From the IMG/VR virus record IMGVR_UViG_3300046536_000202, positions 1 through 42,857 of that record: 42,857 bases of DNA. The stretch is one strand, 5' to 3'. How positions within the stretch are numbered: position 1 is the stretch's first letter; each line of letters opens with the position of its first letter. A program made the translations under genes and the position numbers. Shown here one piece after another: positions 6,181-37,464 of the stretch. Under the pieces are notes generated by a model that searched no databases, was not told the origin of the DNA, and saw nothing but the letters and a program-made list of their open reading frames with translations. The DNA comes from a virus.

Positions 6181-6187
6181 GGCGCAG

Positions 6188-6219
6188 ATTGTGCTGCGTC
6201 AACGATCATTCACGCGCAC
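6188..6219 (-). promoter_or_regulatory. Late-promoter motif, site A (before tailspike)
   Basis: Minus-strand GTGCGCGTGA (6219-6210) starts right after the stop of the preceding gene. After exactly 16 nt comes CACAAT (6193-6188). The tailspike ATG follows 29 nt after the motif. It is one of five sites with the same layout. Confidence 0.65.
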
Positions 6220-9200
6220 TCAGTGTTGCTTCATGTCCCCGTGCGATATCCCGTTGAACCAATCCTGCAGGCGCTGCGGATCCTGCTTGCCGTCGACCAC
6301 GTCCCACAGGAACTGCCCGGTGCTCGACGCCTGGCCGAGCGGCAGCCCGTACACGTAGCCGGCCGCCTGCACTGCATTCTTGGCCGCCTTCGGCGACGCC
6401 GGCTCGCCGTGCGCGACTTTGGCAGCATCCTGCGCGGCGGTCACCACGGCCTTGCCCGCGCTCTCGATCGGCGTCACCGTGTAGCTGCGCCCGTTCACTG
6501 CGGCGTTCGCCAGGTCGCGGATGAACGGGATGCCCGATACCGACCCCAGCCCAACCTCCTCGGCGATGTGCAGCAGGGTCGAAGACAGCTGATGGCCGTC
6601 GTCCTGCTGCGGGCTCGGCTTGAGCATCGCGTGGATCACCTGCGGCACGATGAAATACCACCACGAGCGCGCGAGCAGGCGGCCGAAGTCCTGCGTGCCG
6701 GTGCCCTGCCTGAACGAGTCGGGCAGGTTCGCGTAGCCCTTCACGATGTCGCGCTGGCGGTTGTACATGTGGTTCCAGAAGCTGTAGAACATGGTCGCCA
6801 TTGACACCGCGCCCTTGTCGCGCTGGATCGCAGCCAGGTCCTTCGTGCCGCCGCCTCCGTGAGCGTTGCGCACGGCGCGGTTCGCATACTCGATCGCCGC
6901 CTCCTCCGCCATGCCGTGGCCACCCTCGGCCTCGGGAGCCATTCCTTTCAGGTAGGCGGCATGCCAGGTAGGCATCGCCGACGCCATGTCCAGCATCGCG
7001 ACACCGAAGAACGCATAGCGCTTGCCCGCGTTGACCATCTTCTGCGCCACGCTCAGGGACTTGAAGGACGACTCCGAGGCGGTGATGTCGTGGATCGCCT
7101 CGCTCACGTTGCGGTCCATCTCGTTCATGCGGTTGCGCATCTCGGGCGAGCGCTCGTACACGAAGTCGATGGCGTTCTGGATCCGGTCGATGCCGGCGAA
7201 CTGGGCGACGCCCTTGGCCATCCACTTCGCGCCCACCTCGCCCACCGACGTCGACAGCGCAGACGCGCCGTGGATCATCATCGTGCTCAGGCGGTAGCCA
7301 AGGCCCATGATGGTGACGTTGGTGCGCGCCTTGCGGTAAAAGTTTTCCCAGGCGCTGTCGCCGCTGGTGTTGAACACCTTGTCGTTGGCCAGCGCCTGCA
7401 GCCAGGGGCGCAGCTGCTTGGTGTACTCCTTACCGTAGGTCTGGTCGATCTCGTCCTTGATGCGCGCATCGCTCAGGAACTTGTTAGCCTCGGTGATCGG
7501 CTCGCGCCACGCCAGGTCGTGCGTGACCTGGTCGAGGTGGCGCGAAATCACGCCCAGGCTGAGCATGACCGGACCCACGTAGCCGGTACGCTCGACCGTG
7601 TGCCCCTTGCTGGTAGTCGGTTTGGCCCACTGGTTTTCGAACAGCATGTCGGCGTTGCGAGCCTGCTTGGTCTCGACCGCGCGATCCTGGAAGGCGTCGT
7701 ACACCACCGGGTAGTAGCCGCCCTGGTACTGCCCGTGGCGCGTGCGCACCTGGCGCGGCTCGACCATCTTGGGTGCGACGCCGGTCTGGCGCTTCTGCAA
7801 CCCCTCGATCTCCGGGCCGTGCTTGCCGATCGCGTCCCACACGCCCTGCACGAACTCCCACTCGGGCGCGGACAGGTGCTTATCCAGCTCGCCCATCAGC
7901 TGCTGCTCGGTCCAGCCGTAGCCCTGGACCAGCTTTTTCAGGTTGCCCGCGTTGCCCGTGTTGAGCGCGGCGGCGAGCAGCTCCTCGCGGTACCACTGGG
8001 TGCCACGGCCCGGGCGCGGCAACCCCACCGACAGGCTGTCGTTGAGGCGCACGTTGGCCTCCTTCAGCTTGTCTGCCAGCGCGCGCAGGTCGGCCACCGA
8101 CTCGGACCGCAGGGTGCGCTCGGCGGATTCGGCGTCAGCCATGCTCTTGAAGATCTTGGAGAATGCGCCGTGGCTGGTGTCGGTCAGGCCCGCGCGGCCG
8201 CCGGCATCGAACATCTGGAACAGCTGCTCCATCTTCAGCAGCGCGGCGTCGCCCGAGCGCAGCCTGCTCTTGAGGTCCAGGAACTTGGCGCTGATGCGGC
8301 TCAGGCCCTGGGCGTGCTGCAGGTGCGGCTTCTGGTCGAGCGGGTCGGTATGCTCGACGCCCGACAGCGACTGCCGGGCCTCCTCCACCAGCGCGTCGAG
8401 GTCGAGACGCTTGCCGTCCAGGATGACCTGCGTCTGCTGTCGGCCGATGTGGTCCAGGCTGTGGATCGCGTCGCCCAGCCCGCGCAGCTCCTCCACCGTC
8501 AGGCTGCTCCAGTGCTTCGCCTGCGACATCACCGCGTCGCTCACCGCCGGCATGATGCCGGTGCGCTCGTACTGCTGCTGCATCCAGTCCTGCAGCGAGG
8601 TATCGCTCTTCTTCGGGCGGCGCGCCGACAGCTCGTAGTTGGACAGTATCTCCTGGATGCGCTCCATGTAGTCGGCGCCCACCTGCTTGGCTACCGACGC
8701 CCGGTCGAACTTCTTGAAGTAGATGCGCAGCGCTTCCGCCTCGGCGACGGCGTCGTTGGCGGCCTTGAACAGCTGGTTGTTCAGCAGGGCCGCGCGCTGA
8801 GCCTGCATTGCGCCGGCAGGGTCGCGCGGCGCGAGCTTCAGCGCCTCGCGGTTGGCGCGCGCCTCAGCCGCCGAGTACTGGGCCGGGCGCAGGTCGCGCA
8901 GCTGCTTGGCCGCCACCGCCGCCTCGGCTGCCTCGCGCGCGGCCTGGACCAGCATCGTGGACGGCGCCGTGGGCGTCTTGCTCAGCATCTTGAGGGCGGT
9001 GGCCGTGAAGCGCGCGCGCGCTTCGTTGTGGATCGCCGCCTCGGCCGCACGCTCGATGCTGGCCGGGTCGACCAGCTCGCCGTGCTGCTCGAGCATGCGC
9101 TGGTCGGTCAGGCGCTCGATCTGCTCGGTCATGTTGCCGGCATCCGCGATCGCCTTGCGCATCGCCTTACCGTTCTCGAAGCCGAACATTTCCGCGATCA

Positions 9201-12189
9201 CGTCCGCCTCCAGCTCGGCGTCCGGGCGCTCCGGCTTCGGGTTCTCCGACTCCCAGTGCAGCATCTGGCGCTCGACCTCGTTGTCGATCAGGCGCTTGTT
9301 GCGGGTCATGAACTGACCCTTCTGCAGCCCCTTCTGCCCCGCCGCCGCTTCAGGCGACTGATCCCACATCACGCCCTTGACCTGCTCGCGCACCTCGGAC
9401 ACGCGCGCTGCGTGCTGCGCATCCCATTCCTTGCGTGCTTCCGCGTACGACGGATCGGTACCGCCCGGCCGGCGCAGGTAGGCCTGCGCCTGGCGCACCG
9501 GCTCGGCCTCGACCTCGCGCGTGACGTCGGCGCGGATCGCTTGCCGCTGATCGTCCGCCTTGGCCTGCAGCTCCTTGAGCGCGCGCGCCTTGGCGTTGCT
9601 GGCCCACTGCATGTCGCGCAGGCTACGCGCCGTCATTTCCGCGATCGCCTGCTCGGTCGCCTCCTTGCCGGACTCCTGGTACTCGGCGAACTCGCGCGGC
9701 GACGCGCCCTCGGGTGGCGCCTCGAGCGGGAAGTAGGCGCGCGCCTTTTCCGCTTGTGTGATCGCCTCCTCCGACGCCAGCATCCGGTCCATCACCTCGC
9801 GTACCTCGGGCGACAGGTCGACCTTCAAGTTGGTCAGCGAGCGGTAGATGTTGACCATCCATGCGCGGAAGCGAGAAAACATCGTCTGCAGCTCGAGCGT
9901 GGGAGCCTTACCCTCCATCAGGTAGCGCTCGAAGCCGCGCGCGAACTGCTCGTGCCCGGCCCGCTTTTCCTCGAGCGACTTACCGGACCAGTCCGCCAGG
10001 CGCTGTTCGGGCGTCTCGCCCTGCTCGCCAAACGACTTGAGCAGGGTATCGAAATCGGCCTTGATGCCCTCGGGCGCATCCTCGCGCGCCGCCATGTCGT
10101 GCATCGCCTCCAAGAAGAAGTGGCCGGACTCGTGCAGGTAGGTCGAGAGGTCTGCGTCCTTCAGCAGGCCGATGGTATGCGTGGCGGGCGCGAAGCTGCC
10201 GCGCTCGGCTTGCTGCAGCGCCTCCCCACCCGTCAGGTTGCTGGTCACCTTCAGCGGGTAGCGCTCGTACAGCTCACCCGGCGACAGGCCGGAACGCGCG
10301 GCCATCGTGCTGTAGAACTCGCGCGTCATGGCGGCATAGGCCTCGTTCACCGCCGGCTGGAACCGCCCGGCGCCTTCGAGCTCGGAAAGCACCTTGTCGT
10401 GCACCGCCTGCGCGTCGGCGTGGGTGGCGTCGTCGGCCTGCTTGTCGGCCAGTATCTTCGTCGCCAGCTGCTGCATCCCGTCCTGCTGGGACTCGATATG
10501 GGCCTGGCTCTGGGCATAGGTCATGCCGTCCGGCTCGACCTTCAGGTGGGGCAGCAGTGCCGTGTCAACCTTGCCGCCGGCGAGGTGGGTGGCATAGTCC
10601 TCCACCGGGATCCGGATGTCACCCTGGGTGTGCACGGCCTCGGGGAACTGGGCGGCCACGTCCGGCATTTGCGCGGCCAGCTGCTCGAGCGTCACGCCCG
10701 ACTGGTTCAGCACCTCGGCGAACTTGTTCGCATCGACGTAGACCTCGCGCAGCTGGCCGTCGTCGGCGGCGTCGCGCACGAACTGCTTGAAGGCTTCCGG
10801 GTCGCGCTGCCGGGTCTTGCTGGCGGCGGCCAGCTCGCCGAGCCCCTGCAGGGTTGCGATGCCATCCTGGGCCGCCTGCGCCTTGACCGCGTCCGCGAAG
10901 CCACGCTGCACGTCCGGGTGATCGACAAACCAGCCGCCAGCGGTACGGCCGGCGCCCTGCATCGTGAACAGCGCGTTCAGGCCGTAGCCGAACAGCTTGT
11001 CCTCGAGCGGCCGGTCATCCAGCGGGTGGGCGCCCGAAATGGCATCCTGCACGGCGCTGACGCCAACGGCCCGCCCCAGCCATTGGGCGATCGTGTTGTC
11101 GGGCAGGAGCTTGCCGGCCGCGCCGAACGTCGCACCGGTTGCCGCGCCGCTGACGGCGCCGTGGCCGATGCGCGCAGCCGCCTCGCCAGCCGTGTGCGAA
11201 TCAAGTACCGCACCGCCAGTCTCCTGCAGCGCGCTGGCAAGGCCAAGCGTGGCCGCCTGCTGCAGGACGTTCTTGCCCAGGCCCGTCAGCCACGCCTCGC
11301 CCGCTACCGGAGCAAGCGCGCCGGCGCCCGGGAGCGCGCCGACGATCGAACCGGCGACTTTGCCAGGGCCGAGAATGAAACCGCCCAGGCTGCCGGCGGC
11401 GCCAGCGGTGGAAGCCTGCCACGAGTGCGGGTTGACCGGTACGGTGGGCGAGACGACGCCGAACGTCGCCGCCTGGACGAAGCGCTCGGCCGCCATCTGC
11501 GGGACCTGCGACATGCCGCCGATCGCCTGCCGCGACGACTCCCAGGCGCGATTGTTCAGTGCATCGATCTGCGCCATCGTCGCATCGGGTGCCGGCCGTA
11601 GCGACGGATTGGCGGCGCGCGCGGCCAGGATCGCGTTGGCTTCGGCATCGCCCTGCGCCTGACGGCGCTGCGCCGCGGTTGGCTGGCCGGTGATGCCGGC
11701 CCACCAGTCGATCATCCGGTCACGCAGCGTTGGCGCTTGCTCCGGCAGCGCGACCAGAGTCTGGCCGCCGATCGGCGCCGGGGCGGCCGGGAGCGCCTTG
11801 ACGGCCTGCTCGACACCGGCCAGCGGCGCCACGTCGTCGTGCGACTTGGCGGCATTGCCCGGGTCGGTCATGTACTTGGCCAGCGTGGGGTAGTCGCTGA
11901 CCATCCTGTCCGCGTCCATCGACTTGAGCGCGGCCTGCTGCCGGACGGCGTCTGGCTGCGCCTGCACGGTCTCGACCGGCACGCCCACGTACTTGGCCAG
12001 GTGCTGGTATTGCGCCGCCTGGTCGGGGTTCTGGCCGACAGCGAACTGGATGTTGTTGCGGATCTGGACCGCGGCGCCCTGGGCGTCGTCGTGCATCACG
12101 GCGCCGGCGGCCGCGTCGAACGGGTTGGCCGGTTGCTGCTGCCCGGTGACCAGGTCAGACAGGCTGAGGTTGCTAACTTTATCGGGCAT
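6220..12189 (-). CDS. Giant internal virion (polyvalent-type) protein with zincin motif
   Basis: The 1989-residue product is the largest in the prophage and resembles the large ejection proteins of podoviruses. Near residue 685 it contains LSTYLHESGHFFLEAMHDMA, a zinc-metallopeptidase HExxH-type motif. Such a domain is known in phage polyvalent proteins that travel with the DNA. The N-terminal 200 residues and the long helical, Ala/Gln-rich middle (about 800-1250) are without clear match. The last 500 residues have a repeated hydrophobic and amphipathic character (for example AGKRYAFFGVAMLDMASAMP). ATG 12189 is chosen because it overlaps the end of the upstream gene by 11 nt. It is likely packaged under the portal and injected. 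The substrate of the peptidase is unknown. Confidence 0.8.
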   Translation of the reverse strand: MPDKVSNLSLSDLVTGQQQPANPFDAAAGAVMHDDAQGAAVQIRNNIQFAVGQNPDQAAQYQHLAKYVGVPVETVQAQPDAVRQQAALKSMDADRMVSDYPTLAKYMTDPGNAAKSHDDVAPLAGVEQAVKALPAAPAPIGGQTLVALPEQAPTLRDRMIDWWAGITGQPTAAQRRQAQGDAEANAILAARAANPSLRPAPDATMAQIDALNNRAWESSRQAIGGMSQVPQMAAERFVQAATFGVVSPTVPVNPHSWQASTAGAAGSLGGFILGPGKVAGSIVGALPGAGALAPVAGEAWLTGLGKNVLQQAATLGLASALQETGGAVLDSHTAGEAAARIGHGAVSGAATGATFGAAGKLLPDNTIAQWLGRAVGVSAVQDAISGAHPLDDRPLEDKLFGYGLNALFTMQGAGRTAGGWFVDHPDVQRGFADAVKAQAAQDGIATLQGLGELAAASKTRQRDPEAFKQFVRDAADDGQLREVYVDANKFAEVLNQSGVTLEQLAAQMPDVAAQFPEAVHTQGDIRIPVEDYATHLAGGKVDTALLPHLKVEPDGMTYAQSQAHIESQQDGMQQLATKILADKQADDATHADAQAVHDKVLSELEGAGRFQPAVNEAYAAMTREFYSTMAARSGLSPGELYERYPLKVTSNLTGGEALQQAERGSFAPATHTIGLLKDADLSTYLHESGHFFLEAMHDMAAREDAPEGIKADFDTLLKSFGEQGETPEQRLADWSGKSLEEKRAGHEQFARGFERYLMEGKAPTLELQTMFSRFRAWMVNIYRSLTNLKVDLSPEVREVMDRMLASEEAITQAEKARAYFPLEAPPEGASPREFAEYQESGKEATEQAIAEMTARSLRDMQWASNAKARALKELQAKADDQRQAIRADVTREVEAEPVRQAQAYLRRPGGTDPSYAEARKEWDAQHAARVSEVREQVKGVMWDQSPEAAAGQKGLQKGQFMTRNKRLIDNEVERQMLHWESENPKPERPDAELEADVIAEMFGFENGKAMRKAIADAGNMTEQIERLTDQRMLEQHGELVDPASIERAAEAAIHNEARARFTATALKMLSKTPTAPSTMLVQAAREAAEAAVAAKQLRDLRPAQYSAAEARANREALKLAPRDPAGAMQAQRAALLNNQLFKAANDAVAEAEALRIYFKKFDRASVAKQVGADYMERIQEILSNYELSARRPKKSDTSLQDWMQQQYERTGIMPAVSDAVMSQAKHWSSLTVEELRGLGDAIHSLDHIGRQQTQVILDGKRLDLDALVEEARQSLSGVEHTDPLDQKPHLQHAQGLSRISAKFLDLKSRLRSGDAALLKMEQLFQMFDAGGRAGLTDTSHGAFSKIFKSMADAESAERTLRSESVADLRALADKLKEANVRLNDSLSVGLPRPGRGTQWYREELLAAALNTGNAGNLKKLVQGYGWTEQQLMGELDKHLSAPEWEFVQGVWDAIGKHGPEIEGLQKRQTGVAPKMVEPRQVRTRHGQYQGGYYPVVYDAFQDRAVETKQARNADMLFENQWAKPTTSKGHTVERTGYVGPVMLSLGVISRHLDQVTHDLAWREPITEANKFLSDARIKDEIDQTYGKEYTKQLRPWLQALANDKVFNTSGDSAWENFYRKARTNVTIMGLGYRLSTMMIHGASALSTSVGEVGAKWMAKGVAQFAGIDRIQNAIDFVYERSPEMRNRMNEMDRNVSEAIHDITASESSFKSLSVAQKMVNAGKRYAFFGVAMLDMASAMPTWHAAYLKGMAPEAEGGHGMAEEAAIEYANRAVRNAHGGGGTKDLAAIQRDKGAVSMATMFYSFWNHMYNRQRDIVKGYANLPDSFRQGTGTQDFGRLLARSWWYFIVPQVIHAMLKPSPQQDDGHQLSSTLLHIAEEVGLGSVSGIPFIRDLANAAVNGRSYTVTPIESAGKAVVTAAQDAAKVAHGEPASPKAAKNAVQAAGYVYGLPLGQASSTGQFLWDVVDGKQDPQRLQDWFNGISHGDMKQH

Positions 12190-14182
12190 TCTTGGTTGTC
12201 CAGTAGGCCCGCAGGATCTGGTCGTCGGTCGGGCGCGTGTTGCCGCGCGCGGCGAAGGCGGCACGGATCGAGTTCTGCGATTCGCTCGGGATGTCGCCGA
12301 CCTTCATGCCGAGCAGCGACTGCTGCGAGGTGCCGGTCGACATGCCGAGGAAGGTGTTGCGGAAGGTGACGTTCTTGGCCATGGTCTGGTCCACGTAGTC
12401 CGAGACCTCCTGCGCCGTCATCTTCCGGCCGAGCTGCTGCTGCTGGGCGAAGATGCCATCGCTGACAAACTTCTGGATGCTGCCGACGCGCGACTTCTCG
12501 CCCAGGTCCTTCGGCGCCGGGTTAATGCCGATCGCCTCGAGGCGGCTGTTGAGGGCCGTGTTCAGGGCCGGCCGGTTGATGCTGCCGATGCCCGCTTCGG
12601 CCTTCCCGCTCACATACTCCTGCCGCAGGTCGGCGATCCGCTTGCCGTCGAGCTGCGAGAAATTGGTGATCGCGAAGTGGTTGAAGGTCGCGTCGGACAT
12701 CTTCGCCAGCTCCTCCGGGTGCGCCACCGCATCCAGGTAGGCCGGCATGTTCGTCGTGTTCTCGCCCTTGGCCAGCTTCTTGGAAAAGTCGATCAGGTTG
12801 TCGTACTTGTCGGGCGCGTACTGCGTCACCGCCTGGAGGATGTCAGGGGGAAGCGCCGCCAGATTGCCGTTGTTTTTCACCAGCCCTTGCTGAGCAGCCA
12901 GCATGGCGTTCTCGCCCTTGGCCTTGCGGTCATTGGTGAAGTCGGTGTACATGCGCGTGCCTTCGGCCAGCGCGGCCTGCAGCAGCTTGGGGTCGGGGTT
13001 ATCGCCCAGTTTCTTGCGGATCGCATCGTGCACATCCTGCTGCGAAGGTATTTTTGCGAGCGCAGGCGCGTTGTAGGCAGTTACCGCCGCCGTCAATTTC
13101 GCCTGGTCGGCCGGAGAGAGCTTGGTCGTCCAGTCGCCGTCCTTGCCAGCGTCCTTGATCGCTACGTCAACCACATCCTCGTCGATCGCGGTGGCTCCCA
13201 GCACCTTCGCCGAATCCCCCGCGTACTTGGTCACCAGCTTATTGACGTAGGCTGCCCCGCCGCCGCCTTTCGTGTTATCGGTCACGCCAGCTGCTTCCAG
13301 TATCCGGCTTGTGGCCGATGGCTGGGCGCTGCGCTGTACATCGGTCATGGCATCCATGGCAGTACTGGTCGCGGTGCGCGCCCGCGCGTCGGCCTTAACG
13401 ATCCCGTTCACCTTGAGCAGGTCGTCCGCCGTCATCTCGCCCTTCTTGGCGTTGATGTAGGTCAGCGCATAGTCGGGGTTGTTGTTCTCGAGTGCCGCTT
13501 GGATCACGCCCGCATGGATTGCGCTCGTGGTCTGCTGAATGTTCCCTGAAACGAGATTGGCAGGGGTGCCGTTGATCCGCCCAGCATTCCACACCGCCGC
13601 CTTCGCGCTCTCGACCTGCTGCGCGATCTGGTCCGGGTCGTCCCAGTTCCGCTTCGCCGCATCAGCGGCGAGCTTGATGGTGCCCTCCTGCGTCTCCAGC
13701 CCGAAGGTGCGGAATTCCTGCAGCATGTGCCGCTGCACGTCACCGCCGAACTGCGTGGCCAGCGCGGCCGCCTGCTCGCCGAACACGCGGCGCTGGGCGT
13801 CATTGCCGAGATTCGTGGCGACGTTGTTGATGGTGTCCTGCAGCTGTTCGCCGTACTGCTGCGTCAACGGGCGCCCCAGCGGGTCGGGATTGAGCGCAGC
13901 GGCGCCTTTCTTGTTCAGGTAGCCATTTTCCGGGTCGTACGTCAGCGCGAGCTGCTGCTGGCGCACCGTGTTGAGCGCAGCGTCGACGCGCACCTGGTTG
14001 GCCATCGACTGCGCGTAGACTTCCTCCTGGGTCAGCAGCGCGCCGGTGTCCTGCAGCGCCGCGCCGGCATTGCCCATCTGGCGCGCGCTGGCCTGGTTGT
14101 CGACCGGGGCCGGCTGGCGGTACGGCGCCGGGCCGCCGGATGGCAGCACCTGCGGGGTGTCGTAGGTCGGGACGGTAGGCAT
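12179..14182 (-). CDS. Internal virion protein (gp15-like position)
   Basis: The 667-residue product is rich in Ala, Gln and Asn and predicted mostly helical, with no membrane segment. By position, between a gp14-like small protein and the giant protein, it corresponds to the middle ejection protein of T7-like and BPP-1-like podoviruses. A region around residues 290-370 (GGAAYVNKLVTKYAGDSAKVLGATAIDEDVV) vaguely recalls the structural repeat of transglycosylase-bearing virion proteins, but I see no catalytic motif. The ATG at 14182 overlaps the stop of the preceding gene by one base (TGATG). The open frame extends upstream only as an overlap with that gene. Confidence 0.75.
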   Translation of the reverse strand: MPTVPTYDTPQVLPSGGPAPYRQPAPVDNQASARQMGNAGAALQDTGALLTQEEVYAQSMANQVRVDAALNTVRQQQLALTYDPENGYLNKKGAAALNPDPLGRPLTQQYGEQLQDTINNVATNLGNDAQRRVFGEQAAALATQFGGDVQRHMLQEFRTFGLETQEGTIKLAADAAKRNWDDPDQIAQQVESAKAAVWNAGRINGTPANLVSGNIQQTTSAIHAGVIQAALENNNPDYALTYINAKKGEMTADDLLKVNGIVKADARARTATSTAMDAMTDVQRSAQPSATSRILEAAGVTDNTKGGGGAAYVNKLVTKYAGDSAKVLGATAIDEDVVDVAIKDAGKDGDWTTKLSPADQAKLTAAVTAYNAPALAKIPSQQDVHDAIRKKLGDNPDPKLLQAALAEGTRMYTDFTNDRKAKGENAMLAAQQGLVKNNGNLAALPPDILQAVTQYAPDKYDNLIDFSKKLAKGENTTNMPAYLDAVAHPEELAKMSDATFNHFAITNFSQLDGKRIADLRQEYVSGKAEAGIGSINRPALNTALNSRLEAIGINPAPKDLGEKSRVGSIQKFVSDGIFAQQQQLGRKMTAQEVSDYVDQTMAKNVTFRNTFLGMSTGTSQQSLLGMKVGDIPSESQNSIRAAFAARGNTRPTDDQILRAYWTTKNAR

Positions 14183-14751: not shown

Positions 14752-14776
14752 AGATTCGTCTCCCGTTTACGCCAAA

Positions 14777-14808
14777 AGTGTGCACGGAGCGCCGGCGGTC
14801 ACGCGCAC
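14777..14808 (-). promoter_or_regulatory. Late-promoter motif, site B (before internal virion proteins)
   Basis: Minus-strand GTGCGCGTGA (14808-14799) directly abuts the stop of the nozzle gene. After 16 nt comes CACACT (14782-14777). The gp14-like gene starts 47 nt after the motif. Confidence 0.65.
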
Positions 14809-17798: not shown

Positions 17799-17812
17799 TT
17801 CCGGTTCCTCTC

Positions 17813-17840
17813 AAAAAGAACGGGGCACGCGGCCCCGTTC
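17813..17840 (-). terminator. Intrinsic terminator between head and tail genes
   Basis: On the minus strand, GAACGGGGC pairs perfectly with GCCCCGTTC (9 bp, loop CGCGT) and is followed by five T. It lies after the 17867 gene and before the tail adaptor gene. It may lower tail gene expression relative to capsid genes. Confidence 0.85.
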
Positions 17841-17866
17841 GCAAAAGACACGCGGAGACAGGCGCG

Positions 17867-18328
17867 TCAGGACGACTTGGTCTTGCCAGCCGGTTTTGCA
17901 GCCGCGTCGGCGGCTCCAGTGTCGGCGGTGTTGGTGTTGGTGTTGGTGGCGTCGGTGGCGCCAGCTGGCGCAGCGGGCGCTGCCTCCACAGCAATCCCTT
18001 TCGGGAATGCGGTGGCCATGGCCTGCGCCACGGCGGCGGCGATCATGCCGGGGATCGATGCCACGAATTCGTCGTTGGCCTTCTTCAGCTCAGCGGCGAA
18101 GGTGGCGGCGAACTTGGCAGGATCGCCCACGCCGCTCTCGCTGAACTGCTCCTTCAGCTTGGCGACACGATCGGCGTTGGTTTTCAGGTATTCCTGGTAC
18201 TTCGCACGGCCCTCGTCGCACAGCGGCTCGAGGTTTTCCGCCGGAAGGCCATCGTATTCGACGGTCTCGCCAGCTTCGTGCAGGGTATTCCCGATCAGGG
18301 ACTTTTCTTTCACGAGGTACTTGGGCAT
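17867..18328 (-). CDS. Head-region protein of unknown function
   Basis: The 153-residue product begins PKYLVKEKSLIGNTLHEAGETVEYDG, a short beta-rich domain found in small phage head proteins, and continues with EPLCDEGRAKYQEYLK. The middle is helical (AAELKKANDEFVASIPGMIAAAVAQAMAT). The end is a low-complexity Ala/Thr/Asn tail. It lies directly after the cement and capsid genes and is followed by a terminator. It could be a head decoration or head-completion protein; I cannot decide. The ATG at 18328 is preferred over one 12 nt upstream, because it begins the conserved part. Confidence 0.65.
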   Translation of the reverse strand: MPKYLVKEKSLIGNTLHEAGETVEYDGLPAENLEPLCDEGRAKYQEYLKTNADRVAKLKEQFSESGVGDPAKFAATFAAELKKANDEFVASIPGMIAAAVAQAMATAFPKGIAVEAAPAAPAGATDATNTNTNTADTGAADAAAKPAGKTKSS

Positions 18329-18376
18329 TGCGTTCTCCACGGGAGGGGCTCAGGGGCCGGAGCCCCTGGCCTTGGG

Positions 18377-18871
18377 TTAGCTGACGGTGTAGCCGGACTT
18401 GGCGTAGATGTTCTTCGCGTCCTGCAGGTCCTTCACGATTGCGGCCGTGAACGAGCCTGCCGTGAGCGGGCCGGTACCGACGATGTACTGCAGGCCGACG
18501 TAGCGGCGCGGCGCGAGCGGTGCGGCGCGATCCAGGTGCAGCGGCACGATGGTGCCGGCCGTCAGCTTGGCGATCGGCAGCGGGCCGGTCTGCACGACGA
18601 TTTCCACGTTGGTGGTCAGCGCCGCGTCGTCGGCCTGCACCCAGGCGAAGTTCACGGTCGCGGCGCCGGCCGCGGTGGCGGTCTGCAGCACGCTGATCGC
18701 CAGTTCGGTCGCGGCGCCCGGGCCGTACTCGTTCGGCTGGTTGCCGCCCAGGCCGTCCGGGTTGGTGTCGATCGAGTTGGTCGAGACCGCAGTCACGGTG
18801 ACGGCCTGGCCAGTGAGGGCGCCGGACGCGGAGACGCTGCCCGAAACCATCCCGAGATTGTCGAGGATCAT
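18377..18871 (-). CDS. Capsid cement protein, Bbp16 family
   Basis: The 164-residue product begins ILDNLGMVSGSVSASGALTGQAVTVTAVSTN and includes YVGLQYIVGTGPLTAGSFTAAIVKD near the end. This matches the cement protein family named after Bbp16 of Bordetella phage BPP-1, a jelly-roll protein that clamps neighbouring capsid subunits. It follows the major capsid gene, as in BPP-1-like phages. The ATG at 18871 begins the conserved part. Confidence 0.85.
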   Translation of the reverse strand: MILDNLGMVSGSVSASGALTGQAVTVTAVSTNSIDTNPDGLGGNQPNEYGPGAATELAISVLQTATAAGAATVNFAWVQADDAALTTNVEIVVQTGPLPIAKLTAGTIVPLHLDRAAPLAPRRYVGLQYIVGTGPLTAGSFTAAIVKDLQDAKNIYAKSGYTVS

Positions 18872-18899
18872 GGTGTTTTCCTTGGTTGACTTCAACGGG

Positions 18900-18919
18900 C
18901 CGCGCCTTGGAAGGCGCGG
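18900..18919 (-). other. Strong hairpin between capsid and cement genes
   Basis: CCGCGCCTT and AAGGCGCGG form a 9-bp stem with only two bases between (8 bp if four bases loop out). There is no T run after it on the minus strand, so it is not a classical terminator. It could be an RNA processing or stabilising element. Confidence 0.4.
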
Positions 18920-18955
18920 GACTCGTTTTGTTGATTAACCTTAACGCGCCGTTAC

Positions 18956-19975
18956 TTAAACGACACGCGACTCGGTGTTCAGCAGCTGGTCCACCTTGCG
19001 CAGCGGGACGCCCAGGAAGCTCGTCAGCTGCGTCGGGGTGCCAAACTGCGTCAGGCCTTTCTCGATCGAGAGCGCGGCATTCGACTTGTTCAGCGCCGCC
19101 ACGCGCAGCATCGAGTACACGGTGCGGTTGGCGTAGAAGCAGGCGCGCCCCATGCTCAGGTTCGGGATGCGGTCCAGCGCGCGGCTCATCAGGTTGATGA
19201 TCGCGGTCGCCGCCGTCGCCGCCTGGGTGCCGGACTGGCCGGTCAGGTCGGAGACGTTGATGTTCGAGATCCGCACAATGTAGCGCCAGTCCTTCACGGC
19301 CATGCCGTTCTTCCACTGGTACAGCGCGCGCAGCGCCTGGTAGAAGTTGCCGTTCGCGTCCGGCACCGACTCTTCGCCCAGGTCCTGGTGCTGCAGGCCG
19401 GCCTTGGAGCCTTTCGGGAATGGGCAGAACACGGTGTTCTCGCCCCACACGACCAGCCAGATCGAGCAGTTGTTCGAGCCCGTGCCGCCGGCGTCGATGA
19501 TGTTCTGGCCATTGCCGGCCGTGAGCGAGCTGTAACGGGTTTGCAGGCCGAGGAACTGGCGCGGGTCGGTGCCAGGGTTACCGTAGAACATGGCGCCGGC
19601 CTGCGTCTGGTTCATCGCCTCGAGGAAGGCCTGGTCTTCGGACAGGCGGAATTCGGCGGTGTTACCGTTCAGGTTGGCCAGCTCCACGTCGATGTGCGAG
19701 CGGGCTTCCAGGATGCCGCACGCCTCGTCAACCTGCGCCGTGACCGACTTGGAGGTCGGCACGCCCTGGTTGATCATGCGGTAGTACACCTGCGGCAGGC
19801 CGGTACGGATGGTGATGCGGTGGCCGGTCGGCAGGTTGCCTTGCACGAACACAGCGTCTTCGAGGATCTCGTTGGTTTGCGAGAGCAGCTCGGCCACCTT
19901 CGGCACCTGGCCGTTGGGGTCGAGTCGTTTGGCCCAGTCGGCCAGCGTCAGAGCGCCAGATGCGAGTACAGCCAT
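18956..19975 (-). CDS. Major capsid protein (BPP-1 type)
   Basis: The 339-residue product has the profile of a HK97-fold major capsid protein of BPP-1-like phages: AVLASGALTLADWAKRLDPNG, QTNEILEDAVFVQGNLPTGHRITIR, FYGNPGTDPRQFLGLQTRYS, and a C-terminal LTSFLGVPLRKVDQLLNTESRVV. It is flanked by the scaffold gene upstream and the cement gene downstream, the usual order. It shows no N-terminal cleavage region, in keeping with a separate scaffold protein. Confidence 0.9.
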   Translation of the reverse strand: MAVLASGALTLADWAKRLDPNGQVPKVAELLSQTNEILEDAVFVQGNLPTGHRITIRTGLPQVYYRMINQGVPTSKSVTAQVDEACGILEARSHIDVELANLNGNTAEFRLSEDQAFLEAMNQTQAGAMFYGNPGTDPRQFLGLQTRYSSLTAGNGQNIIDAGGTGSNNCSIWLVVWGENTVFCPFPKGSKAGLQHQDLGEESVPDANGNFYQALRALYQWKNGMAVKDWRYIVRISNINVSDLTGQSGTQAATAATAIINLMSRALDRIPNLSMGRACFYANRTVYSMLRVAALNKSNAALSIEKGLTQFGTPTQLTSFLGVPLRKVDQLLNTESRVV

Positions 19976-19981
19976 GGTCGT

Positions 19982-20695
19982 TTATCCTTTTGCTTGAGTG
20001 GGGTAGAGGACGGCGGCCGCACTCTTGTCCGAGGACGACGAGGCGCCGCCCGGGACGAAGTTGGAACCGCTGATTTTCTGCCCGGCGCGGTAGAACGCCC
20101 GGATGATCTCCGGATGATTCCCCAGGCCGGTGTCGTTGAGCAGGGTGCGCAGCTCGGGCGTCCCGAAGGTGTCCAGCGCCTTCTTTGCCACCGCCAGGTT
20201 CTCGGGCAGCTTGTCGCCGCCGAACTCCTTGTCAGTCCGCGCGCTATCGGCCCACCCGGTCTTGATCGACTCGAACTGCGCAGTTTGCGCAGCAGCGAGC
20301 TGGGGAGCCATCGCGTCGACGACTTTTTGCGCCGCATCCTGCGACAGGCCCAGCTCCCGCGCCACGCCTTCGAACTTGCTGATCACTTCCGGATTGAGCT
20401 GCGTGCCCTCGGGGGGCGTGAACTCGTACTTTTCCGGAACGGTCGGCTTGTCATCCGGCTTCGGGGCTTCGCCCTCGGCCGGCTTGTCGGCGGGTTTGGG
20501 ATCCGTACCACCGGCCGGCTTCTCGGCAGGCGCGGCGGCGGGCTGTGCGGCAGAAGCGTTCTGCTCGGTTGCTGCGGCTGCTGCCGGCGCCGGTTCTCCG
20601 GCAGCAGGTGCCGGGGCCGGTGCTGGAGCTGCTGCAGCGGGTTGCGCAGCGCCGGTATCTGGTGTGTTCCCGGCGATCAGCGATTCGGTGCTCAT
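19982..20695 (-). CDS. Capsid scaffolding protein
   Basis: The 237-residue product has an extremely Ala/Pro-rich N-terminal half (about 1-85), then a helical region (NPEVISKFEGVARELGLSQDAAQKVVDAMAPQLAAAQ) and a C-terminal part with FGGDKLPENLAVAKKALDTFGTPELR. This composition and its position just before the major capsid gene are typical for phage scaffold proteins, which direct procapsid assembly and then leave. It overlaps the upstream gene by ATGA. Confidence 0.82.
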   Translation of the reverse strand: MSTESLIAGNTPDTGAAQPAAAAPAPAPAPAAGEPAPAAAAATEQNASAAQPAAAPAEKPAGGTDPKPADKPAEGEAPKPDDKPTVPEKYEFTPPEGTQLNPEVISKFEGVARELGLSQDAAQKVVDAMAPQLAAAQTAQFESIKTGWADSARTDKEFGGDKLPENLAVAKKALDTFGTPELRTLLNDTGLGNHPEIIRAFYRAGQKISGSNFVPGGASSSSDKSAAAVLYPTQAKG

Positions 20696-20994
20696 TTGTC
20701 TTTTGCCTCGTTCAGTAGTTCGGTGTAGCGCTCAGGGCAGTGCGCCGTGACCAGTGCCAGCAGCGCGTTCCCCTGGTTGCGGTTGCCTTCGTTGAACGCC
20801 ATCTGCAAGGCGTTGGTGTGGAACGAAATCCGGAACACGCCTGCGCCTTCCAGAAAGCGGTGCACGATGCGGCGCCCGCGCTTGCTGCTCATCAGCCACT
20901 TGATGTCGTCGGCTTCCGTTTGTGCCGCGAGCCGGCCGCGCTGCTTCTGTTCTTCACTGCGGGCCTCCTGGGCGGCGATATCGGTCGGTTCCAT
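20692..20994 (-). CDS. Bbp19-like head protein
   Basis: The 100-residue charged product contains WLMSSKRGRRIVHRFLEGAGVFRISFHTNALQMAFNEGNRNQGNALLALV, a pattern of the small Bbp19-like phage family that lies between portal and scaffold genes in BPP-1 relatives. Its function is not known to me. It is the first gene after late-promoter site C and is coupled to the scaffold gene. Confidence 0.72.
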   Translation of the reverse strand: MEPTDIAAQEARSEEQKQRGRLAAQTEADDIKWLMSSKRGRRIVHRFLEGAGVFRISFHTNALQMAFNEGNRNQGNALLALVTAHCPERYTELLNEAKDK

Positions 20995-21002
20995 GAGCGC
21001 CC

Positions 21003-21034
21003 AATGTAATAGCCGATGAGCAAGTCACGCGCAC
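21003..21034 (-). promoter_or_regulatory. Late-promoter motif, site C (before capsid genes)
   Basis: Minus-strand GTGCGCGTGA (21034-21025) directly follows the TAG stop of the staple-like gene. After 16 nt comes TACATT (21008-21003), the best -10 match of the five. The Bbp19-like gene starts 30 nt after the motif. Confidence 0.68.
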
Positions 21035-21367
21035 CTAAGCGCTGCCGCCAGTGCCGTACAGGACCGTCGCGGCAGACGGCTCGGCCTGTGCCGGCACCAG
21101 CTCCATGTCGGTGATCTGCAGGTCCATGCTCACGTCCTTGCCGTCCTGCGTCTGGCGCTGCGAGTTGCCGGTCACGTCGACCAGCGCGATGAGGCGCAGC
21201 TTGGTGCCGACATCTGGCATCGATGTCATGCCCAGCTTCTGGAGCGTCTCGTCGTTCAGGTACAACGACAGGCCGTACGGGTATTTGGGCGTGTCGTCGT
21301 CCGAGCTGGTGACCATGCAGCCAGCTTCTTCCTTTGCCTCGTCCGGCGTCAGGGCCATGTTGATCAT
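21035..21367 (-). CDS. Capsid staple-like protein
   Basis: The 110-residue product begins MALTPDEAKEEAGCMVT after a three-residue leader, then YPYGLSLYLNDETLQKLGMTSMPDVG and DLQITDMELVP. Small phage proteins of this pattern are annotated as capsid staple proteins and lie near the portal gene. The assignment rests on recalled family resemblance. A clear AGGAGA ribosome-binding site precedes the ATG at 21367, and an alternative ATG lies nine bases further in. Confidence 0.7.
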   Translation of the reverse strand: MINMALTPDEAKEEAGCMVTSSDDDTPKYPYGLSLYLNDETLQKLGMTSMPDVGTKLRLIALVDVTGNSQRQTQDGKDVSMDLQITDMELVPAQAEPSAATVLYGTGGSA

Positions 21368-21377
21368 TGCGGTTCTC

Positions 21378-23033
21378 CTATTGTGCGAACAAGCTCATCA
21401 CGTCGCTGGCGGCATTGCCGCCGGTGGTAGGGGTAGCGCCCAGCTTCTGCGCTGTGTCGGCAGCCATGTTGGACTGCTGCTGCGCGGCAGCCTGCGCCTG
21501 CGCCTTGGCGCGTGCCTGGCGCACTTGCTGCACCTGGTCTTCCGGCACGATCAGGTCCGGCGAGACGCCCAGCATGTCGCTGTACTGGTCGGCCCATTTG
21601 TCGCTGTTGAACTTGTCCAGCACGTCCGGCTTGAATGCCGCGATCTGGCCCAGGTTGCCGACGAAGCGGTCCACGCCGTTGGTCGCGATCGCGCGCTGCG
21701 CCTGCGCCAGCACGCTGACCAGTTCGACGTGCAGCTCCATGCCCTGCAGCTCCCGCGGCGGCGGCGGCACCAGCCCGGCCTCGACCATCTGGTCGAATGT
21801 CGTGTCGATCAGCGGGTCGAGCAGCTCGTCCTGCAGGCGCTCGAGCACCGGGCCCAGCATGAGCATCTTTTCCTCGTGGCGCTCGGCCACTTCCGTCGCG
21901 GTCATGCGGCCATTCGACTCGGTGATGGCGAGGAACAGGTCGGTGAAGAAGCTGCCGCGGATCCGGTTGCGCACGTCCCCGATGTCCTCGAGCAGGTGCT
22001 GCAGGTTCAGCTGCACGTCGTAGGCCGAGCGGATACCCTGCCCGCCGGCGGCGTCGATGAACGTGATCCCGCCAGGCATGCGGTCCACATCGCGGTTCTT
22101 CATCGAGGTCGGCACCTGCAGCGGCGGGTTCACCTGGAAGTCGATGGCCTGCGCCTTGCGCAGCTGCTCGTGCTGGAGCTGCTTGATGTCGCCCAGCGCC
22201 TCCATGCCCGGGCTGTTGCCGTAGATGTCGCCGCCCTCCACGTCCCAGCGCGGGCACATTGCCGGGAATCGCTTGAAGCCAGACTCGCGCAGCAGCACGT
22301 CCGGATTACCGGCCCGCTCGAAATAGATGTCCTTCCACGCCATGTTCAGCGTGTCGATCTTGGTCACGTCACGGTCGGCGCGCGGCTCGATGCAGTGCAC
22401 GATGGTGACCCACTGGTCCAGCTGGCCGCGGTCGGACAGGTTCTGCACCGATGTGCTGCACTTGTCGCGCCCGAACTCCTTGACCATCTGCCCCACCGTT
22501 ACGTCGAACTCGCGGTACAGGGTGCACGCCTTGCCCTGGAAGTCGGTCGCGATACAGAACTCGCCCGTGGTCAGCGGGTGGTTGTGGATCACATGGTCGA
22601 AGTTGGGCATCAGGATGTTGGCCGCGGTGCCAAACACGCCGAGCTCCTTGTAGACCATGTGCAGCGCGCGATAGGTGTTCGAACGCTGGAAGATCGCGAG
22701 CATGGTGTTGGTGCGGTCGGCCATCCACTGCTTGACGGCCGGCGCCTTGTTCAGCTCTTCGTCGGCGGTGGCCAGCTTGAACCACGGGCGCGCGGGCGAG
22801 GTCAGGCCGCCCATCAGGCCCGCCGCCAGGACGTTCAGCGAGCGTGAGCCCGTGTTGTCATAGATCGAATTGTGGCGCCGGGTGCCCTTGTTACGGTCGG
22901 TGACGAAGTAGCGGCCCTGGCGCGGCGCGAGGTAGGCCGAGAGCTGCTGCCAATGCTCCATCCAGCTCGCCCGCTCGGTCTTGAGCTGGCCGAGCCGGTT
23001 GAACATCAACTGGCGCTGGGTGAGTTCTGCCAT
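21378..23033 (-). CDS. Portal (head-to-tail connector) protein
   Basis: The 551-residue product has the T7-like and BPP-1-like connector profile: ELTQRQLMFNRLGQLKTERASWMEHWQQLSAYLAPR near the start, TGSRSLNVLAAGLMGGLTSPARPWFKL, and GRMTATEVAERHEEKMLMLGPVLERLQDELLDPLID. The C-terminal 60 residues are Gln/Ala-rich. It forms the dodecameric DNA gate and binds terminase and tail adaptor. The start overlaps the stop of the preceding gene by one base (TGATG). Confidence 0.92.
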   Translation of the reverse strand: MAELTQRQLMFNRLGQLKTERASWMEHWQQLSAYLAPRQGRYFVTDRNKGTRRHNSIYDNTGSRSLNVLAAGLMGGLTSPARPWFKLATADEELNKAPAVKQWMADRTNTMLAIFQRSNTYRALHMVYKELGVFGTAANILMPNFDHVIHNHPLTTGEFCIATDFQGKACTLYREFDVTVGQMVKEFGRDKCSTSVQNLSDRGQLDQWVTIVHCIEPRADRDVTKIDTLNMAWKDIYFERAGNPDVLLRESGFKRFPAMCPRWDVEGGDIYGNSPGMEALGDIKQLQHEQLRKAQAIDFQVNPPLQVPTSMKNRDVDRMPGGITFIDAAGGQGIRSAYDVQLNLQHLLEDIGDVRNRIRGSFFTDLFLAITESNGRMTATEVAERHEEKMLMLGPVLERLQDELLDPLIDTTFDQMVEAGLVPPPPRELQGMELHVELVSVLAQAQRAIATNGVDRFVGNLGQIAAFKPDVLDKFNSDKWADQYSDMLGVSPDLIVPEDQVQQVRQARAKAQAQAAAQQQSNMAADTAQKLGATPTTGGNAASDVMSLFAQ

Positions 23034-23335
23034 CAGCCGCCACCCAGCAGCGTGTTCTTGCCCAGGTTGAGCAGGGACGGATCAACGCCGGACGCGCCGG
23101 TGAGGAAAGTCTGCGCGACGCCGGGCGCGCCGCCGCCCTGCCCTGCGCCTGCCTGGCTGGCCTGAACCGCCTGAACGTTTGGCGCCTTGGATGGCTGCGG
23201 GCGGTTCGCCTGTGCCTCGGCGGCGGATTCCTTCTGCGCGTTAATCGAATCCTCCTGCGCCATGCGCTGCTGGTGCGAGCTGTACATTGTGGCGCCGGCG
23301 GCCGCGACGGCCATCACTGCGGCGGATACGCCCAT
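23033..23335 (-). CDS. Small Ala/Gln-rich protein next to portal
   Basis: The 100-residue product has one N-terminal hydrophobic small-residue stretch (SAAVMAVAAAGATMYSS), a charged middle and a Gly-rich end (GKNTLLGGG). I do not recognise a family. It lies between the acetyltransferase and portal genes and is coupled to portal. The composition resembles small internal virion proteins. Confidence 0.6.
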   Translation of the reverse strand: MGVSAAVMAVAAAGATMYSSHQQRMAQEDSINAQKESAAEAQANRPQPSKAPNVQAVQASQAGAGQGGGAPGVAQTFLTGASGVDPSLLNLGKNTLLGGG

Positions 23336-23337
23336 GG

Positions 23338-23784
23338 TTAGAGCTCCTTAGAAAAGATGATTTCCTGCACCTTGCAGCCCATCCTGGGGAGGATGGCCGC
23401 CAGCGGTGTCTGTTCCTTGGCGTGCCACAGCATCAGGTGGGCGCCGCGATCGCGTGCCGCGCGCTCCGTCTCGCGAATGAGCTTCAGGCCCAGCGCGCTC
23501 TCGCGGTGCTCCTTTGCCACGAACAGCACGTCGTTGTGCGCGCACAGCAGCTCGGCGTAGTGCAGGTGCGGGCTGAGGATGTTGACCGAGTAGCCGACGA
23601 TCTCCTCGTCGGCGTATGCCACCAGCGACAGCAGCGAGCCGGCCGCCTCGAGCGCCTGGTAGCGCACCACATCGGGCTTGAGCACCATCAGGTGCTTGTT
23701 GCGCGCCGATTCGTGCCAGTGCGCCTCGAGCAGCCCGGGGACGTGCTCGATCTTGTCGGCGATGGTGGTTTCAACGATGCGCAT
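23338..23784 (-). CDS. GNAT-type N-acetyltransferase
   Basis: The 148-residue product has the GNAT layout: an N-terminal strand-helix, AYADEEIVGYSVNIL, then LFVAKEHRESALGLKLIRETERAARDRGAHLMLW, where the helix before RESALGLKLI would bind acetyl-CoA, although the usual RGxGxG is degenerate (KEHRESALGL). It lies between the large terminase and portal genes, a place where related podoviruses often have such an enzyme. Substrate unknown. It is the first gene after late-promoter site D, and its ATG overlaps the terminase stop (TGATG). Confidence 0.8.
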   Translation of the reverse strand: MRIVETTIADKIEHVPGLLEAHWHESARNKHLMVLKPDVVRYQALEAAGSLLSLVAYADEEIVGYSVNILSPHLHYAELLCAHNDVLFVAKEHRESALGLKLIRETERAARDRGAHLMLWHAKEQTPLAAILPRMGCKVQEIIFSKEL

Positions 23785-25376
23785 CAGGCGTAGGGGTCGT
23801 GGATTCGAGATTTGTACGGATCGTGCCAGTGATCGGTCGAGTCACGCGCACTTCGCAGCGCCGCGCGCTTGGGCGTGTCGATCAGCCCCAGACAGTAGGC
23901 GCTGGCCAGGTCGGGCGAGCGGCCGATGCGCTTGATGATGTCCTCGCGGCTCTCCACCTGGATGGTCGCGCCGGACAGCTTCCACGTCGGCGCGCACAAC
24001 TCCACCAGCAGCTGGCGGTTCGGCGGCAGCGCGATGCCGGTGTTGTTCGACGGGTCGAGCGCCTCGCGCATCATCCACCACAGCTCACTGCGCTGGTTCA
24101 TAAAGCGCAGGCGGCCAGACTTGTCGGTGGCCAGCGACTTCTCGGACACGTTCACGCCAAGCACCTGCTGGTTGTTCGAGTTGAGGAAGTCGTACGGGCT
24201 TGCGCCGACGCCGATCACGTCCAGGTGGATCGGCGCGTCGTCGCGCTTGGCCGCGATGGTCAGGCCTGCCACGGTCGGGCCGTCCGGGGTTTTCGTGCCC
24301 TCGTAGATCAGCGGCTCGTCGAACCACATGCCGTGACGGCGCGCGATAGTCGTGTTGTCGCGTCCGCCGCGCGCCACGTCAACGCCCATACTGTCCATCG
24401 GGTCGAGCTTGTCGGGCCGGCGCCAGCGCGCCTGCGCCGCCTCCACCCACGCGGTCGGGATCACCTGGAAGGCCGAGTCCTCGACGCCGGCCAAGAAGTC
24501 GCCGCGTAGCATCTGCGAGCGCAGCGGCTCGGGAAGTGATTGCAATGTGGTCATGTAGCCGGTGCCGTACAGGTAGGGGTTATCGGTGATGCGCGACGGG
24601 ACGAAGGTGCGCGAGCGAGGCTTGATGATTTCGTCAGGCGCATGACTGGCCGGATCGAACTCGTATTCAGGCACGCCGGCCAGCACCACGAACTCGCGCG
24701 CGTCGGCCACCTCGATCTCCTTGCCCGCGACGGTCGCGAAGTAGCGCAGCTCGCCCGGCTTGGCCGGATTCGGGTGCTTGGGATCCAGCCAGGGCCCAAA
24801 GAAGTCGATGATCCAGCGGCCTTCCGAGTCGGTTGGTGGGTTGAAGCACAGGAGCGCCTGGCACACCTGCTTCGGGTCAACCGAGCGCAGCCAGCCCAGC
24901 AGGAAGCGCACCTGCTGCTCGAGGAAGTTGGCGGCCTCGTCGAACACCAGCAGGTCGTGGGGGCGGCCCTGGTATTTCTTCTCGTCGCCTGCGTATTGCG
25001 TGGCGCCGAACTCGATCTGCAGGCGCTTGCCGTCGAAGCGCGTAGTGCGCCAGATGTTCTTCTGGGAGTTATAGCCATCGGTTCCGTCGAACAGCTCCTC
25101 GAAGCGGTCCAGCACGCCCGTGAGCTGGGTGCCCTCGCGCCGCAGCACCATCACCTTCTGGTGCTGGGTGATCGCCTTGCCGCACGCCAGGTCGGTCTTG
25201 CCGCCGCCGGCCGCGCCGCCATAGCCGATCACATCGGCGGTTGACTCGTAGGCCATCGTCTGCGGGCCGGGCAGCGGGAACCAGGGACGCTTGTCGAGCG
25301 CGAGCAGTCGGTTCAGCTCGGCGCGCTCCGCGGGGGTCAGATACGGCAGCGCGGCCTCGATGTCGCTTGGCTTCAC
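23784..25376 (-). CDS. terL: Terminase large subunit
   Basis: The 530-residue product has a Walker A-type motif GYGGAAGGGKT at 51-61, Walker B DLLVFDEA at 141-148, and a nuclease region beginning MGVDVARGGRDNTTIA near residue 328. It is the packaging motor that translocates and cuts phage DNA. The start is GTG and overlaps the small-subunit stop (GTGA). The last 20 residues are encoded across and beyond late-promoter site D. That short tail may be a later extension of the reading frame. Confidence 0.95.
   Translation of the reverse strand: MKPSDIEAALPYLTPAERAELNRLLALDKRPWFPLPGPQTMAYESTADVIGYGGAAGGGKTDLACGKAITQHQKVMVLRREGTQLTGVLDRFEELFDGTDGYNSQKNIWRTTRFDGKRLQIEFGATQYAGDEKKYQGRPHDLLVFDEAANFLEQQVRFLLGWLRSVDPKQVCQALLCFNPPTDSEGRWIIDFFGPWLDPKHPNPAKPGELRYFATVAGKEIEVADAREFVVLAGVPEYEFDPASHAPDEIIKPRSRTFVPSRITDNPYLYGTGYMTTLQSLPEPLRSQMLRGDFLAGVEDSAFQVIPTAWVEAAQARWRRPDKLDPMDSMGVDVARGGRDNTTIARRHGMWFDEPLIYEGTKTPDGPTVAGLTIAAKRDDAPIHLDVIGVGASPYDFLNSNNQQVLGVNVSEKSLATDKSGRLRFMNQRSELWWMMREALDPSNNTGIALPPNRQLLVELCAPTWKLSGATIQVESREDIIKRIGRSPDLASAYCLGLIDTPKRAALRSARDSTDHWHDPYKSRIHDPYA
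23820..23851 (-). promoter_or_regulatory. Late-promoter motif, site D (inside 3' end of terL)
   Basis: Minus-strand GTGCGCGTGA (23851-23842) is followed after 16 nt by CACGAT (23825-23820). Unlike the other four sites it lies within a coding region, 55 bases before the end of the terminase stop codon. The acetyltransferase ATG follows 57 nt after the motif. Confidence 0.6.
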
Positions 25377-25948
25377 GCGGCCGCCTCCTTGCGCTTCTGT
25401 GCTTCTGCCAGCAGCGCGGCCAGCTTGGACGCGGTCTGGGTATCGGTAACGAGCGGCGCGTCATCCTCCGGCTTGTTCATCGCCTCGATCGTTTCCTTGT
25501 TCGCGCGCAGCAGGTTGATACCGATCTCGCTGGCGGCGTTGGCCATCTTGGTCAGGCCTGCGATGCGCTGCAGCGCATCGACCGACTTTTCCGGCTCGGC
25601 GTCGTCCACCTTCTCGGCCTGGCCGTTGGCGATGCCGGCGAGGCGGTGCGCGGTCAGCGCGCCGTAGTGCGCGGCGTCCGCGAGGTTCTCGGAGATCGAT
25701 TTCAGCCGGTCGGCCAAAGTGCGCGCCTTGATCTGCGCACTTATCGGAAGTGCGCGAAAATTCGTCTCAGCTACAACCAGTTGATTTGCAACGACTTTTA
25801 TTTGTTCGCACTGCGCACCTAAGCGCTTTCGGATTGCAGCTTCGGAAATTTCGAACTCGCGCGCCAGCGCCCGGGCCTTCTCCCCGTCCAGCAGCCGCTT
25901 GCTGATCTCCTCCCACTGCACGTCTGTGAGCTTCGAATTACGGCCCAT
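25373..25948 (-). CDS. terS: Terminase small subunit
   Basis: The 191-residue product has an N-terminal helix-turn-helix (DVQWEEISKRLLDGEKARALAREFEISEAAIRKRLG, about 8-45), then a coiled helical middle, fitting a DNA-recognising small terminase. Position immediately before terL with a 4-bp overlap supports this. It is the first gene after late-promoter site E. Confidence 0.85.
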   Translation of the reverse strand: MGRNSKLTDVQWEEISKRLLDGEKARALAREFEISEAAIRKRLGAQCEQIKVVANQLVVAETNFRALPISAQIKARTLADRLKSISENLADAAHYGALTAHRLAGIANGQAEKVDDAEPEKSVDALQRIAGLTKMANAASEIGINLLRANKETIEAMNKPEDDAPLVTDTQTASKLAALLAEAQKRKEAAA

Positions 25949-25992
25949 GATGTTCTGCTGCCTCCGTCAAATTGTTCAGCCCCATGCGCCGC

Positions 25993-26024
25993 ACGATAGC
26001 GGCGGCGCACGGCATCACGCGCAC
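25993..26024 (-). promoter_or_regulatory. Late-promoter motif, site E (before terminase)
   Basis: Minus-strand GTGCGCGTGA (26024-26015) shares its first G with the TAG stop of the HTH gene. After 16 nt comes TATCGT (25998-25993). The small terminase gene starts 66 nt after the motif. It would be the first late promoter. Confidence 0.65.
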
Positions 26025-37402: not shown

Positions 37403-37414
37403 TCCCTGGTCTCG

Positions 37415-37436: not shown

Positions 37437-37464
37437 TTCCACAACAATAAACAGAACGAGAATC

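Follow-up and report, generated by a model that had tools for sequence, protein, structure and literature searches.

We conclude that a 59-aa helix-turn-helix (HTH) protein of a BPP-1-like phage is probably a late activator that acts at the −35 position and directs host σ70 RNA polymerase to the late promoters. The window analyzed here, a 42,857-nucleotide IMG/VR virus record, is a BPP-1-like podovirus, probably a temperate one, with five copies of a 10-mer on its minus strand as the candidate late promoters. In the initial annotation, the sites were taken as a family of late promoters at which host polymerase works with a phage activator reading the 10-mer, and sequence comparison with relatives supports this proposal.

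Five promoter-like sites in the window

The window represents a BPP-1-like podovirus: its gene order is that of Bordetella phage BPP-1, the model phage for diversity-generating retroelements, and the BPP-1 portal is 61% identical. On the minus strand, a small HTH gene is followed, in the direction of transcription, by genes for a putative small terminase (TerS), TerL, GNAT acetyltransferase, portal, bbp19 homologue, protease, major head protein, tail proteins, internal virion protein, an endolysin-type protein, a 2014-aa protein, and tail spike (Table 1). Parts of a diversity-generating retroelement lie on the plus strand (36509–39647); in BPP-1, by contrast, the late strand carries the cassette. 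A tRNA-His is found near the left end (980–1055), and the same type of attachment site is annotated for BPP-1. Two integrase-like genes are present in this one phage (26238–27317 and 40020–41120), and a gene of the Hcp (type VI secretion) family adjoins the right end (41233–41724, plus strand) and may be host DNA or cargo.

As described in the initial annotation, the 10-mer GTGCGCGTGA has five minus-strand copies, at 6219, 14808, 21034, 23851, and 26024, and the window holds no other exact copy. The combination of 10-mer, 16 nt, and the hexamer YAYNNT (all hexamers being YANNNT) gives exactly five exact matches, and the A at hexamer position 2 and the T at position 6 never vary (5/5 sites), again in agreement with the first reading. 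So is the relation to stop codons: three sites abut one, and at 26024 the first G of the P1 10-mer is the final base of the HTH-gene stop codon. The first reading had also placed all sites at late-gene seams. They do precede late operons, and the seam classes P1–P5 recur across relatives, but the site at 23851 falls within the 3′-terminal part of the TerL gene and not in a gap. There, the TerL codons ...SARDSTDHWHDPY... (23820–23851, minus strand) double as 10-mer and −10 hexamer.

The GC content of the window is 66%, and other GC-rich 10-mers are equally frequent (five to seven copies), so the five-copy count alone is little evidence. When we asked for a 10-mer present four or more times on one strand, each time with.A...T at one fixed offset, 0 of 200 first-order Markov shuffles matched; the observed number was five. 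The first base of the −10 hexamer is C at three of the five sites, which is poorer than TANNNT and counts against a promoter reading. A one-mismatch copy of the 10-mer at 3243 was rejected; it resembles coding sequence and has no −10 hexamer.

Table 1. Predicted promoters and associated genes of the window
Feature	Position	Strand	Remarks
P1, terminase promoter	25993..26024	−	10-mer 26015–26024; −10-like TATCGT 25993–25998
P2, GNAT-acetyltransferase/portal promoter	23820..23851	−	inside TerL 3′ coding end; −10-like CACGAT 23820–23825
P3, capsid-block promoter before bbp19 homologue	21003..21034	−	−10-like TACATT 21003–21008; ATG of the gene 8 nt on
P4, internal-virion-protein promoter	14777..14808	−	−10-like CACACT 14777–14782; GGGAG leader before ATG
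P5, tail-spike/lysis promoter	6188..6219	−	−10-like CACAAT 6188–6193; ATG of the gene 7 nt on
59-aa HTH protein (MRTLKGRPTGERHP...KRTVRDICTYKRR), proposed late activator	26024..26203	−	just upstream of P1, late orientation
Putative small terminase (TerS), HTH_7-like N terminus, first full gene after P1	25373..25948	−	synteny with BPP-1 bbp26
GNAT acetyltransferase, first gene after P2	23338..23784	−	
bbp19 homologue (phrog_528), first gene after P3	20692..20994	−	predicted leaderless
Internal virion protein, first gene after P4	14182..14751	−	
Tail spike, first gene after P5	3463..6180	−	predicted leaderless
FGE-sulfatase-type candidate variable protein	36509–37402	+	
bAvd-like	37465–38319	+	
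Reverse transcriptase	38316–39647	+	

The promoter-like layout in related phages

Querying the phage collection at the DNA level with the tail region gave no matches, and relatives were then found through the portal protein. The motif search in BPP-1-like phages that had been proposed at the outset as a check was strongly positive. In about 45 relatives, BPP-1 included, a 9- to 10-mer, 16 nt, and a TANNNT-like hexamer stand at the same late-gene seams. Seams, spacing, and hexamer are kept, while the 10-mer is phage specific: it is constant within a phage and varies between phages, with about 20 versions of gGTGCNCGTR. The family consensus is gGTGCNCGTR, a 16- to 17-nt spacer with almost no information, then TANANT. 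BPP-1 itself carries four copies of GTGCCCGTGC, before bbp26, bbp24, bbp19, and bbp9, each followed by 16 nt and a −10-like hexamer. The 10-mer of the window recurs at the same seams in L010, L011/L086 (Janthinobacterium sp. CG3 prophage), and L012; the motif is GTGTACGT in L007 and L008, GTGTACAAG in the Aquitalea prophage L088, GTACCCGTA in Limnohabitans phage DC33 and zth2-2, and GTGCACGTA or GTGCGCGTA in many other relatives.

Across 48 phages, the phage-specific 9-mer is present in 155 copies on the late strand versus 4 on the other. Neither this strand bias nor the seam positions were built into motif choice. The pattern.A...T is found at +26 in 143 of the 155 sites (92%, against 0–16 at neighboring offsets), a figure that arises partly by construction, as motif calls required a GT start and two or more copies with.A...T at +26. 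Among phages with related portals, epsilon15 and Pseudomonas phage AF have neither the HTH protein nor the motif. Caulobacter phage SR18 has the HTH protein and three GTGCGCATGA sites, but its −10 is irregular, which counts against the promoter reading. The initial annotation had held that its proposal would fall were the motif common in the host chromosome; host chromosomes carry it essentially only in the prophage, with 3–5 occurrences there and 0–3 in the remainder of the named host genomes.

In BPP-1 (L123, NC_005357; ~6130–6186), a terminator-like hairpin (CCCCTGGGGAAG...CTTCCCCAGGGGTTTTT) holds the −10 of the bbp9 promoter in its loop, and the predicted promoter and terminator seem to be nested. 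L092 has an extra copy of its own motif upstream of its HTH gene (5193), which suggests that this gene may be positively autoregulated. In L116, L117, and L119 (alphaproteobacterial hosts), the bbp19 seam carries another element (AATCGT...) at roughly the corresponding position; no HTH homologue was found in these three, and the element possibly has another reader.

A start codon lies 5–9 nt after the hexamer at 86 sites of the family; 80 of these codons open frames of at least 60 aa, and SD-like sequence is seen upstream in only 3. At about half of the family sites, the start codon is 6–8 nt after the −10 box, that is, at the predicted +1, and those late mRNAs should therefore be leaderless. 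This arrangement is found at the bbp19 seam in nearly all phages, with the N terminus MSNYDPxD conserved from that very codon; in the window, the bbp19 homologue and the tail spike are of this type, and P4 is unlike them in having a leader. At P1, the +1 ATG opens a 15-codon frame (MGLNNLTEAAEHHGP; 25942–25986, minus strand) that overlaps the TerS start; in relatives, the +1 ATG opens a full-length gene. The BPP-1 TerS gene (bbp26; L123 25734–26318) is annotated as starting 21 codons upstream of the post-promoter leaderless ATG, and this start may be misannotated.

A small HTH protein whose predicted recognition helix covaries with the motif

When all window ORFs were compared, the HTH protein was the only non-structural one with homologues in nearly all complete relatives; tblastn also recovered a homologue in L080, the one relative missed by ORF comparison. 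A profile search placed the family, 59–90 aa in size, at the head of the late region in more than 70 related loci. The BPP-1 copy is Bbp27, labeled “endonuclease.” A longer frame upstream of P1 (25938–26207) was discarded as it gave no family, the conserved ORF there being that of the HTH protein.

We next consider which protein column follows the motif. Mutual information was calculated for 47 non-redundant motif/protein pairs, each motif base being scored against the ~1,700 alignment columns of seven proteins (HTH, portal, MCP, protease, bbp19, TerL, and tail). The top column for motif base 5 was HTH residue 52 (z = 13.2), and for motif base 3 it was HTH residue 51 (z = 7.4). With C at base 5, residue 52 is K in 12/12 cases; with G, it is D in 14 of 19, G in three, and S in two; with A, it is R, K, Y, S, N, or A. 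The pairing of G at base 5 with glycine, in L094, L074, and L100, means that the code is not one-to-one. For seven of the 47 pairs, the motif was assigned by eye from the bbp19 seam, and leaving these out does not change the contingency.

Kinship was controlled for by simulating base evolution on the portal, TerL, MCP, and HTH (helix columns removed) trees. The base-5 link was reached in 0 of 2000 simulations on each of the four trees, and the base-3 link in 0–10 of 2000. Pairs of phages illustrate the same point. L006 has a portal 90% identical to that of the window, yet the motif changes from GCG to TAC and the helix from RD to AK, whereas L103, with a portal only 59% identical, shares the window 9-mer and the RD pair. 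The covariation of its predicted recognition helix with the motif makes the 59-aa HTH protein the most likely activator.

AlphaFold predicts a tri-helical HTH with moderate confidence (pLDDT 71.5), in which helix 3, the predicted recognition helix, spans residues 47–54 and contains the covarying, adjacent R51 and D52. The nearest folds to this model are the Hin and Tc3 DNA-binding domains (Z ~6), though such Z values are common and no proof of function. VIA-align gave Z 6.2 and an rmsd of 2.2 over 45 residues against Hin, and Z ~4.8, a value common among folds, against σ region 4 on −35 DNA. Foldseek with the model returned no match at E < 0.001. A PDB search with the single sequence was uninformative, as were the top matches obtained with the profile, designed helical-repeat proteins, which were followed by weak matches to σE and resolvase HTHs. 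Pfam matches to Sigma70_r4 were sub-threshold, and PHROG matches to late activators (phrog_836/532, E 0.03–0.05) and to HNH endonucleases were weak. An HNH match in Pfam was absent, the 59-aa protein being the HTH part only, with no catalytic domain; the weak HNH-endonuclease likeness may explain the label of Bbp27.

Proposed late switch, alternatives, and known systems

We propose that host RNA polymerase with its housekeeping σ would read the TANNNT-like −10 of promoters that have no normal −35 element. The phage-specific 10-mer, at about −38 to −29 and centered near −33 for a +1 predicted 7 nt after the hexamer, would take the place of the −35, and the small HTH protein would bind it and recruit polymerase. 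The proposed activator gene is oriented like the late genes and immediately precedes the terminase promoter. Its product, when synthesized, would jointly turn on the terminase, acetyltransferase/portal, capsid, internal-protein, and tail-spike blocks, with leaderless late mRNAs expected from about half of the family sites. The sequences themselves show the sites with their conservation, spacing, and orientation, the covariation with the HTH protein, and the start-codon position; HTH binding to DNA, activation over repression, σ70 use, and the exact +1 are what we infer.

The layout resembles an ordinary −35/−10 pair with fixed spacer, and the 10-mer could thus be the −35 of an alternative host σ, or the site of a host activator, borrowed by the phage. 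We consider this very unlikely: the 10-mer is identical within a phage yet differs even between phages with 90% identical portals, host genomes have it almost only in their prophage, and it tracks the recognition helix of a phage protein. If the phage protein is the reader, it might act as a repressor or timing brake of the late promoters, since repressors, too, bind at the −35 position that the site overlaps, and small HTH proteins are often repressors. That is also very unlikely. The 10-mer occupies the −35 position, and with a consensus −35 hexamer lacking from the conserved part of the site, an unaided promoter would be weak; moreover, a regulator gene directly before terS is the order known for late activators (PMC13123087). 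It is from the absence of another −35 and from this gene order that activation is preferred over repression.

The position of the sites at gene-block seams, and the HTH that the terminase small subunit also has, would fit repeats that are module-exchange boundaries or packaging/terminase sites and not promoters. A fixed −10 at +26, the orientation of 155 versus 4, and a start codon at the predicted +1 have no role in recombination, however, and the window TerS has no detectable homologue in phages with the identical 10-mer, for which reason it was also rejected as the reader of the 10-mer. We regard such boundaries or packaging sites as highly improbable, and late promoters read by the HTH protein remain our preferred explanation. 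A more far-reaching version of it is offered tentatively: the HTH protein may be a detached, exchangeable −35 reader that replaces σ region 4 while the host σ keeps the −10, with about 20 mutually specific pairs, a simple helix code (e.g., at base 5, K with C and D with G), and largely leaderless late mRNAs.

A phage late activator with a −10-only promoter is a known kind of system. P1 Lpa, P2 Ogr, and Mu C are phage activators of late promoters that lack a normal −35, and their sites lie elsewhere, at about −22 or −55; as far as examined, their protein families are unrelated to the HTH protein. As with RinA/Ltr of staphylococcal phages, where the regulator gene is immediately upstream of the late promoter and terS, the window has the HTH gene, P1, and the putative terS in succession. 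In contrast, Ltrs are ~130 aa and serve one late promoter (in Phi13, with direct repeats upstream of the start site), whereas here the proteins have 59–90 aa and there are four to five promoters with one 10-mer at the −35 position; sequence comparison gave no more than the weak phrog_836/532 matches. The T4 MotA box is centered near −30 and replaces the −35 element, the σ70 −10 being kept (PMC6755090). The window box, at about −38 to −29 from the predicted +1, likewise stands in place of the −35, as under MotA/AsiA, but MotA is a much larger protein than the HTH protein, whose tri-helical model is Hin/resolvase-like, and the genes concerned are late, not middle. An N-terminal G-R-P-like arm followed by a tri-helical HTH is shared with the DNA-binding domains of Hin/Tn3-type recombinases and HNH endonucleases, of which the window protein corresponds to the DNA-binding part only.

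For all its resemblance to the RinA/Ltr and T4 MotA systems, the HTH protein probably forms a new family. In the literature searched, which left most subscription journals outside, we found no description of this protein family, of an asymmetric box repeated four to five times at the −35 position, of the specificity code, or of the leaderless outputs, nor a report on BPP-1 late promoters or Bbp27 function, for which prior mention in subscription papers is possible.

The late switch of the BPP-1 group, a widespread group of phages, has very likely now been identified as a protein (Bbp27) and its promoters. The covariation predicts that a two-residue swap should move specificity between the promoters of different phages. 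About 20 natural pairs of tiny activator and promoter would be useful for studying the evolution of DNA-binding specificity and as orthogonal regulators, and the predicted leaderless starts would provide a clean test case for late phage translation without a Shine-Dalgarno sequence.
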